64,000 nt of DNA. It comes from Actinomycetota bacterium (GTDB lineage Bacteria > Actinomycetota > Actinomycetes > Nanopelagicales > Nanopelagicaceae). The notes below the pieces were generated by a model, which saw only the letters and a program-made list of their open reading frames with translations, was not told the DNA's origin and made no database searches. The stretch spans positions 23,280 through 87,279 of the forward strand of contig WLNY01000005.1 of NCBI GenBank assembly GCA_009699575.1, given 5' to 3'. The stretch's first letter is position 1, and the number at the start of each line of letters is the position of its first letter. Made by a program: the position numbers and the translations under genes. Shown here one piece after another: positions 10,284-12,949 of this stretch.

Positions 10284-10949
10284 ATGTCACGTGAAATACG
10301 CATAAATCCAAGCATTCTCAATGCCGATCATGATCATATTCATGAAGAGATTGCTCGTATTGCGAAGGTTTCGGACTATATACACTTGGACATTTTTGAT
10401 AATAAATTCGCACCAAATTTTTCGTTTGATTGGAAACTGGCGCAGGAGATAATTTCACGCAGTGAAGCACCCATTGACGCTCATCTCATGGTTTGTGATG
10501 CTGATTACATCGGACCACAATATGCCGAGGCTGGAGCCAAGAGCGTTACGGTGCATGTGGAAGCAACTCACAATATTTCGCAAACAGTCAAAAATATTCG
10601 CTCCCATGGGGCCCGTGCAAGTCTTGCCATAAAACCAAGGACTTCTATTGATGATTACTCTCAATACATTGATGAGGTAGACATGTTCCTGATTATGACC
10701 GTGGAACCCGGTTTCGGAGGGCAGAAATTTATGACCGAAATGCTTGAGAAAATCAGTCGAACTCGAGAATTGATTGGGAATAGACCAATTTGGATTCAAG
10801 TCGATGGTGGAATTTCACAGGAGACTATAGAAATCGCTCGCGACGCTGGAGCTGACACCTTTGTCGCTGGCAGTGCGGTCTTTCGTTCACTTGATCCGGC
10901 CGCCATGGTCGAGTCATTGCGCCAATTAGCCTCGAATGTGAAAGACTAG
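10284..10949 (+). CDS. rpe: Ribulose-phosphate 3-epimerase
   Basis: INPSILNADHDHIHEE, HLDIFDNKFAPNFSF, MTVEPGFGGQKF, QVDGGIS. Confidence 0.95.
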   Translation: MSREIRINPSILNADHDHIHEEIARIAKVSDYIHLDIFDNKFAPNFSFDWKLAQEIISRSEAPIDAHLMVCDADYIGPQYAEAGAKSVTVHVEATHNISQTVKNIRSHGARASLAIKPRTSIDDYSQYIDEVDMFLIMTVEPGFGGQKFMTEMLEKISRTRELIGNRPIWIQVDGGISQETIEIARDAGADTFVAGSAVFRSLDPAAMVESLRQLASNVKD

Positions 10950-10957
10950 TCCTACGT

Positions 10958-11085
10958 TGTTCCGGGGGTCGGTGTAATTCCGAACCGGCGGTGAAGTCCG
11001 CGACCCGATCAAATCCATTGATCGGTTGATTTGGTTAAATTCCAAAACCGACAGTTAGAGTCTGGATAAAGGGACATAGTTTCCG
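10958..11085 (+). promoter_or_regulatory. FMN riboswitch (RFN element)
   Basis: GGTGTAATTCCGAACCGGCGGTGAAGTCCGCGACCC ... GATCAAATCCATTGATC variable stem ... GGTTAAATTCCAAAACCGACAGTTAGAGTCTGGATAAAGGGA matches the RFN consensus. Confidence 0.95.
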
Positions 11086-11152
11086 TTGCGCACTCTGCGC
11101 CACGGTTCTTTGTTGCTTCCTGGGCGCTCTAACCGAGGAAGGATCTACGTAG

Positions 11153-11818
11153 ATGTCATTTTTGACGTGGCTTTTTGAAACAAATATTCACTTTGGAAGT
11201 AAGTCGATTCCATTGCGAGAAATAATTGGCGGAACACTTGGTCTTACCAGCGCGATTTTAGGCGCTCGTCGAAAAGTAGCAGCGTGGCCGATAGGAATTA
11301 TGGGTGACGCGTTGCTCTTTACAGTCTTCCTAGGTGCCGTATTTACAACAAGTGATCAGGATGCAAATTTCTATGGTCAGGCGGGCAGAAACGCCCTACT
11401 CATCATTGTCAGCGCGTATGGATGGGTCAGATGGAGTAATGCTCGCAGAGCCAACCAATCACATTCACCTGTCACGCCTCGCTGGACCACTGCTAAAGAA
11501 AGAATGATCCTGCTCCCTGCAATTATCGTTGCCTTCTTCTTATCAATGCAGGTTTTTAAGAGCCTTGGAGAAAGTGGAAACTGGTTAATTGTAGATACAT
11601 GGATCTTCACAGGCACAGCCCTTGCCACCTATGGCATGAGTCGCGGATATGTTGAGTTTTGGCTTGTGTGGGTTGCAGTCGACTTAGTTGGCGTTCCCTT
11701 TGCCTTCATCAACGGCTATTACCCGACAGGAACGCTCTATGCAATCTATCTTCCCTTTGTTATATGGGGATTCGTATCGTGGCTTCGAATTAGCAAGAAA
11801 GAGAGGGTCCTCATCTAG
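11153..11818 (+). CDS. ribM: PnuC-superfamily transporter, predicted riboflavin transporter RibM/PnuX type
   Basis: PnuC-like membrane protein (EIIGGTLGLTSAILGARRKVAAWPIGIMGD); FMN riboswitch in leader implies a flavin substrate. Confidence 0.85.
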   Translation: MSFLTWLFETNIHFGSKSIPLREIIGGTLGLTSAILGARRKVAAWPIGIMGDALLFTVFLGAVFTTSDQDANFYGQAGRNALLIIVSAYGWVRWSNARRANQSHSPVTPRWTTAKERMILLPAIIVAFFLSMQVFKSLGESGNWLIVDTWIFTGTALATYGMSRGYVEFWLVWVAVDLVGVPFAFINGYYPTGTLYAIYLPFVIWGFVSWLRISKKERVLI

Positions 11819-11830
11819 TAAAGTAGCGCT

Positions 11831-12094
11831 ATGAAGTCTTTTGATTCCCTCTGGGTTGAGTTATCCAGCATTGCACTCACTCGCCCGGAGGGGTCAGGCA
11901 CTATTAAGGCCCTTGACGCCGGGGTTCACGGGATTGGCAAGAAGGTACTGGAGGAAGCCGGCGAAGTCTGGCTCGCAGCAGAGCATGAGAGCGATGACGC
12001 CCTAGCGCAAGAAATTAGTCAGCTTCTCTATCATCTCCAAACTCTCATGTTGGCTCGAGGTCTCACTCTCGATGATGTTTACAAATACCTCTAA
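11831..12094 (+). CDS. hisE: Phosphoribosyl-ATP diphosphatase
   Basis: [43 protein letters not shown]. Confidence 0.93.
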
Positions 12095-12103
12095 GGAGTT
12101 GTG

Positions 12104-12949
12104 ATGCTGCGTATCGCTGTACCAAATAAGGGCTCCTTGGCTGAGTCGGCAATTCAAGTTCTTAAAGAAGCAGGATATAAACAGCGAAGTGATACTCGCG
12201 ATTTGATCTTGATCGATTCTGAAAACGAAGTGGAATTTTATTACTTACGCCCACGAGACATTGCGCTATACGTTGGCTCAGGTGAGCTCGATGCGGGAAT
12301 CACTGGTCGGGATTTATTGATTGACTCAGGGGCGCAGGCTAGTGAAATTCTTGCTTTAGATTTTGCTGCGTCGACCTTTAGATGGGCAGCCAAGGTTGGA
12401 ACGCAGATGGTCGAATCAGATATATCCGGTAAGAGAGTGGCGACTGCCTATCCCGGCCTTGTTCAAAATTACCTAGATTCACGTTCCATTGTTGCCTCTG
12501 TTGTCAGACTTGATGGCGCCGTCGAAAGCAGCGTTCGTCTTGGGGTCGCTGATGTAATTGCAGATGTTGTCAGTACAGGAAATACGCTTCGCCAAGCTGG
12601 ACTGGAAATTTTTGGTGAACCCATTCTCACAAGTGAAGCCATTTTGGTTTCAAGAGCTACCACTTCAATTTCTACCTCCTTGGAGATTTTAGTTCGCCGA
12701 CTCCAGGGAGTTATAACAGCTCGTCAGTATGTACTTCTTGATTATGACTGTCCAAAAGAGAAAGTGGATCAGGCCTGCTCAATCACACCAGGATTAGAAT
12801 CTCCCACGATTTCCCCACTTCAAAAACAGGACTGGGTGGCAGTTCGGGCAATGGTTTTGCGAAAAGAAACTAATCACGTCATGGATCAATTGTGGGCGCT
12901 AGGCGCTCGAGGAATCCTCGTGACTGATATTCATGCGTGCAGGTTATAG
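12104..12949 (+). CDS. hisG: ATP phosphoribosyltransferase
   Basis: MLRIAVPNKGSLAESAIQVLKEAGY, GITGRDLL, adjacent to hisE. Confidence 0.95.
   Translation: MLRIAVPNKGSLAESAIQVLKEAGYKQRSDTRDLILIDSENEVEFYYLRPRDIALYVGSGELDAGITGRDLLIDSGAQASEILALDFAASTFRWAAKVGTQMVESDISGKRVATAYPGLVQNYLDSRSIVASVVRLDGAVESSVRLGVADVIADVVSTGNTLRQAGLEIFGEPILTSEAILVSRATTSISTSLEILVRRLQGVITARQYVLLDYDCPKEKVDQACSITPGLESPTISPLQKQDWVAVRAMVLRKETNHVMDQLWALGARGILVTDIHACRL

Follow-up and report, generated by a model that had tools for sequence, protein, structure and literature searches.

The 64,000 nucleotides of DNA analysed here (the window) come from the MAG of a freshwater actinobacterium, 1.39 Mb in 49 contigs (completeness 85.36%; G000 below), and the locus between rpe and hisE in this window very probably supplies flavin to a riboflavin auxotroph of the acI/Planktophila group. 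At this locus riboflavin would be imported by the transporter PnuX, an FMN riboswitch would control the translation of pnuX, and the whole arrangement would be the remnant of a block of riboflavin biosynthesis (rib) genes. In lakes, the most numerous cells are frequently acI bacteria. If the need for riboflavin varies among close relatives, and synthesis is regained as well as lost, then one-way gene loss would be too static a picture of vitamin exchange in the plankton, and media for cultivation could be designed species by species.

The rpe-hisE locus and its FMN riboswitch

The features of the locus, by position in the window, are as follows.

10284..10949, + strand: rpe, ribulose-phosphate 3-epimerase, the upstream neighbour (TIGR01163, 224.6 bits, above cut-off)
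10954..11080, + strand: FMN riboswitch aptamer (RFN element; RF00050, 95.7 bits, gathering score 66.2, model positions 1-138)
11054..11060, + strand: predicted antisequestor arm GUUAGAG within the aptamer, able to pair with CUCUAAC at 11127-11133 (from the minimum-energy fold computed for the whole leader)
11116..11143, + strand: predicted expression platform, a sequestor hairpin over the Shine-Dalgarno sequence (fold of 11075-11175)
11153..11818, + strand: pnuX/ribM, predicted riboflavin facilitator of the PnuC family (PF04973, 144 bits; fold match to 4qtn; FMN riboswitch upstream)
11831..12094, + strand: hisE, downstream neighbour (NF001610, 140.6 bits, above cut-off)
12101..12949, + strand: hisG, downstream neighbour (TIGR00070, 173 bits, and TIGR03455, 109 bits, both above cut-off)

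The initial annotation had described a complete RFN aptamer from 10958, which is 4 nt inside the full-length RF00050 match, followed by a PnuC-like transporter, with rpe upstream and hisE-hisG downstream, and the family models bear out each of these elements (for the transporter, TIGR01528, whose 51.7 bits exceed the cut-off of 42.45, in addition to PF04973). The aptamer follows the rpe stop after only 4 nt and hisE follows the pnuX stop after 12 nt, so the rpe-hisE interval of the window holds no hidden gene and no recognisable gene remnant.

In the covariance-model search of the window the aptamer scored above the gathering score over the full length of the model (E 8e-21), which places it in the FMN riboswitch family, and no other FMN riboswitch was found in the whole assembly. 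In the predicted sequestor, CUUCCU (11116-11121) pairs with AGGAAG (11136-11141) and covers the Shine-Dalgarno sequence GAGGAAGGA (11135-11143), and in the predicted ligand-free fold the antisequestor arm of the aptamer is paired with CUCUAAC. The computed folds of the window leader give the Shine-Dalgarno sequence an unpaired probability of 0.52 in the ligand-free state versus 0.15 in the bound-like state, and the bound-like state lowers its predicted accessibility in 22 of the 25 relatives that were scored (mean 0.14 vs 0.26). The arms of the sequestor hairpin are conserved across 21 relatives, and as they show hardly any variation there is next to no covariation. The antisequestor shows one covarying pair, in relative L159 (GUUAAAG/CUUUAAC), and its pairing is broken in L176, which amounts to modest support across relatives.

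A promoter scan around the locus gave no promoter-like site above chance, and a terminator scan of the pnuX leader gave none except for a match inside the aptamer's own hairpin. Because there is room for a promoter before the riboswitch only inside rpe, and because hisEG lie directly behind pnuX, the likely design is translational control within a transcript that rpe, pnuX and hisEG would share. When FMN is plentiful it would bind the aptamer in the rpe-pnuX leader, and the hairpin over the Shine-Dalgarno sequence would then keep pnuX from being translated; at low FMN the aptamer's 3' portion would pair with the platform and free the ribosome site. Control at this level would let one transcript go on serving hisE-hisG.

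Identity and substrate of the transporter

The transporter belongs to the PnuC family by the curated PnuC model TIGR01528 and by its fold, as the predicted structure (pLDDT 79) matches PnuC 4qtn with a TM score of 0.65 (E 4.7e-6). This is its only solved relative; a phmmer search of the transporter sequence against the PDB gave no match, and 4qtn was found by a profile search. According to a survey of ribM (PMC4418817), RibM and PnuC cannot be told apart by sequence alone, and a gene is recognised as ribM by FMN-riboswitch control or by location in a rib operon. In the window the riboswitch is upstream, and in genome G155 the same gene ends a rib operon.

A rival view would make the transporter a PnuC for nicotinamide riboside, or else a thiamine-importing PnuT, that merely happens to be coupled to an FMN riboswitch. 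The TIGR01528 score, the NCBIfam name of the family (nicotinamide riboside transporter), the fact that the sole solved relative is a PnuC and the inseparability of RibM and PnuC by sequence (PMC4418817) all lean that way. Nevertheless we regard this as highly improbable, for the riboswitch family is specific for FMN and the transporter gene and the rib operon replace one another reciprocally, the gene being inside the rib operon in G155. As for thiamine, only FMN and tRNA families matched in the window, with no TPP riboswitch upstream of the transporter, and the thiamine role appears to be already taken by a second, shorter PF04973 paralogue that acI genomes have; in G000 this paralogue is known from a count, which gives its number and not its place. 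In three congeners (L294, L295, L296) a TPP-like riboswitch is just upstream of the short paralogue with 31-42 bits (E 6e-6 to 4e-3), scores that are below the gathering score of 54.3, and this fits a role of the short paralogue as a PnuT that transports thiamine. In L295-L297 a P-loop kinase-like gene either overlaps the short paralogue or comes directly after it. Because of the FMN riboswitch upstream and the reciprocity with the rib operon, we infer that riboflavin, and not nicotinamide riboside, is the substrate of the window transporter.

The riboflavin pathway in this genome

A full riboflavin pathway elsewhere in the genome had been named in advance as the finding that would overturn the prediction of riboflavin import and possible auxotrophy. 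Family searches of the G000 assembly (85% complete) found no RibH, RibE or RibB, whereas RibF is present outside the locus, and this is the gene content expected of an auxotroph. Among 57 genomes RibE and RibB share one presence pattern (35 with, 22 without), and RibF is present in 57 of 57. The sister species G116 has its rib operon between nrdJ and dinG; in G000 the nrdJ-dinG interval (L098, contig C48) is contiguous and without rib genes, and there are none at the argG site either. The prediction of import together with auxotrophy is thus well supported by gene content, and G000 may with strong reason be taken for a riboflavin auxotroph. PnuX (RibM) would import riboflavin, and RibF, the bifunctional kinase/FAD synthetase, would turn it into FMN and FAD and in this way trap it in the cell.

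With 49 contigs and a completeness of 85.36%, a rib locus could sit in a gap of the assembly, and the species would then be a prototroph. The rib operon of the sister lineage (G116/G199) and the 18 of 201 genomes that hold both systems speak for such a reading, but it is very unlikely: the sites at which rib operons are known in the genus (nrdJ-dinG and argG) and the rpe-hisE site are all present and rib-free, a pnuX with a riboswitch is typical of genomes without rib (26/27 vs 3/16, see below), and the 99% complete relatives G092 and G140 are in the same state.

One of these two relatives, G092, is the acI-A4 strain IMCC26103 (CP015604), for which Kang et al. 2017 (PMC5301498) reported a genome that lacks the rib operon and has its sole FMN riboswitch in front of a PnuC-like gene, and for which they proposed PnuX and riboflavin auxotrophy. 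The lone riboswitch-pnuX arrangement is therefore already published for a congener. IMCC26103 resembles G000 in its genus, in the lone FMN riboswitch-PnuX, in the absence of a rib operon and in the presence of RibF, but its cassette is between argG and fpg instead of rpe and hisE, and the two PnuX proteins are 71% identical. The RibM of Streptomyces davawensis, compared here by its description (PMC3239331), is likewise a PnuC-family facilitator under the control of an FMN riboswitch, and its transport of riboflavin and roseoflavin has been demonstrated (PMC3239331); its gene, however, is inside a biosynthesis operon (ribBMAH), whereas the window pnuX stands alone in a predicted auxotroph. The monocistronic FMN-regulated ribM of Actinobacteria (PMC4418817) has the same build of a riboswitch and a single transporter gene, and the exchange across the acI family described below does not appear to be covered by that survey. 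The RibM of Corynebacterium is a low-affinity facilitator with a Km of 11 uM (PMC3239331), which sits awkwardly with such a protein being the sole source of riboflavin in oligotrophic lakes.

Exchange of synthesis and import across the family

What is new here is the near-exclusivity of the rib operon and pnuX across the family, the polyphyly of the rib operons within the genus and the tie of the riboswitch to the absence of a rib operon. Of 201 family genomes, 101 have rib only, 64 have pnuX only, 18 have both and 18 have neither; among the high-quality genomes these numbers are 52, 36, 7 and 4 (Fisher odds ratio 0.015), and both sets of counts ignore kinship. One of the genomes with neither, G190, has a contig that begins at hisE, so that its pnuX may lie in the gap. 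A tree of 47 scored genomes yielded 8 independent contrasts in rib state, and pnuX changed in the opposite way in 6.6 of them on average and in the same way in 0 (sign test on the independent contrasts, median p 0.016).

The rib operons of the window's genus are polyphyletic (a single clade gives AU p 3e-39), and those of acI as a whole are phylogenetically scrambled between genera (L077-L089, L141-L150, L274-L292); for example, that of G020 from genus g6 groups with those of G122 and G051, and that of G034 from genus g8 groups with that of G181. Given this polyphyly within the genus, the simplest reading is that riboflavin synthesis was regained, probably by horizontal transfer.

Origin of the lone riboswitch-pnuX arrangement

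The initial annotation had suggested that the biosynthesis genes were lost while the transporter and its sensor were kept, and the arrangement in genus g4 supports this. In G155 the order is rpe-RS-ribD-E-BA-H-pnuX-hisG, where RS is the riboswitch and pnuX is the last gene of the operon, and in G003 and G077 of the same genus rpe-RS-ribD-E-BA(-H) is at the same place. In G119 RS-pnuX is at rpe-hisEG with no biosynthesis genes, and its pnuX-hisE junction is identical to that of G155. The riboswitch tree has two groups (SH-aLRT 98), and the rib riboswitches of G155, G003 and G077 group with the pnuX riboswitches of the rpe-hisE site (site A) and not with the rib riboswitches of other sites. A single clade of rib riboswitches is rejected (AU p 0.001); one clade of all site-A riboswitches is not rejected (AU p 0.16), and this value is no proof of one clade. 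At this site, where pnuX is found in genera g1, g4, g6, g8 and g15, the pnuX tree shares 10 of 14 strong splits with the flanks and conflicts in 3. From the synteny in g4, the kinship of riboswitches by site and the fact that pnuX mostly follows the flanks, loss in place is favoured, and the site is most likely the remnant of an older rpe-RS-ribDEBAH-pnuX-hisEG block, with loss as the presumed direction of change.

The opposite course would be that RS-pnuX was inserted as a cassette between rpe and hisE and that the g4 operons arose later by insertion of rib between the riboswitch and pnuX. In most members of the window's genus rpe and hisE are adjacent; its prototrophs have rpe adjoining hisE without pnuX, and their rib operon is elsewhere, for instance at nrdJ-dinG or argG-fpg. 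RS-pnuX is not confined to rpe-hisE either, being found for example at argG-fpg in IMCC26103 and next to argG in genus g2, and given the horizontal mobility of rib operons in the family noted above, the arrangement in g4 may have arisen by insertion at a later stage. We consider this course possible but clearly the less probable one, since pnuX at rpe-hisE, where it is found in five genera, mostly tracks the phylogeny of the flanks and the riboswitch lineage goes with the site and not with the gene. With regard to scope, the RibH search at the order level gave matches only from the same family, and the contig scan covered mainly acI-type MAGs.

The riboswitch and the presence of a rib operon

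When riboswitches in relatives were scored by covariance model, one was found before pnuX in 26 of the 27 genomes without a rib operon versus 3 of the 16 scorable genomes with both systems (Fisher p 2e-7, uncorrected for kinship; the loci are spread over several genera). Two dual genomes were not counted: G155, with pnuX inside the operon, and G014, whose contig ends at pnuX. The exception that lacks RibH in its assembly is G044 from genus g6, of which the members G020, G032 and G055 have rib operons. Among the three dual exceptions, pnuX of G147 is on a contig of 1.5 kb and the RibH match of G127 is partial. In three dual genomes, G168 (L090), G188 (L092) and G196 (L262), the leader of about 200 nt is gone and the riboswitch is cleanly missing, and the start of pnuX either is 0-10 nt away from the stop codon of rpe or overlaps the rpe end. 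dN/dS was saturated in most pairs; the sole usable pair that includes a riboswitch-free pnuX, G188 vs G194, gave 0.026, one value that is in line with purifying selection. In G009 (IMCC26077; L298, 797-1820), which also has a rib operon, a riboswitch-free pnuX is directly beside the RNase P RNA gene.

We offer a broader picture that we hold to be rather unlikely in its entirety. The FMN riboswitch of acI would mark the sole source of flavin, with lineages switching between import and synthesis and regaining rib horizontally; once a rib operon is present, pnuX would lose its riboswitch, stay constitutive by coupling to the preceding gene and might serve as an energy-independent route of exchange or export, which would make the prototrophs suppliers of riboflavin. 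For the riboswitch pattern itself (26 of 27 vs 3 of 16 genomes), a limited literature search gave no earlier report. The dual genomes with a riboswitch-free pnuX are a natural test of the release of a transporter from feedback once synthesis is present.

Two further observations concern the his genes beside this locus. With the window HisG as the query, no match at E 1e-40 was found in G001, G018 and G030 of genus g2 or in G010, three of these four genomes being 99-100% complete, and it is possible that their histidine pathway has been lost or has strongly diverged. In G068 (L239, 5372-8529) rpe-hisE-hisG is duplicated in tandem, and the first hisG is a truncated copy.
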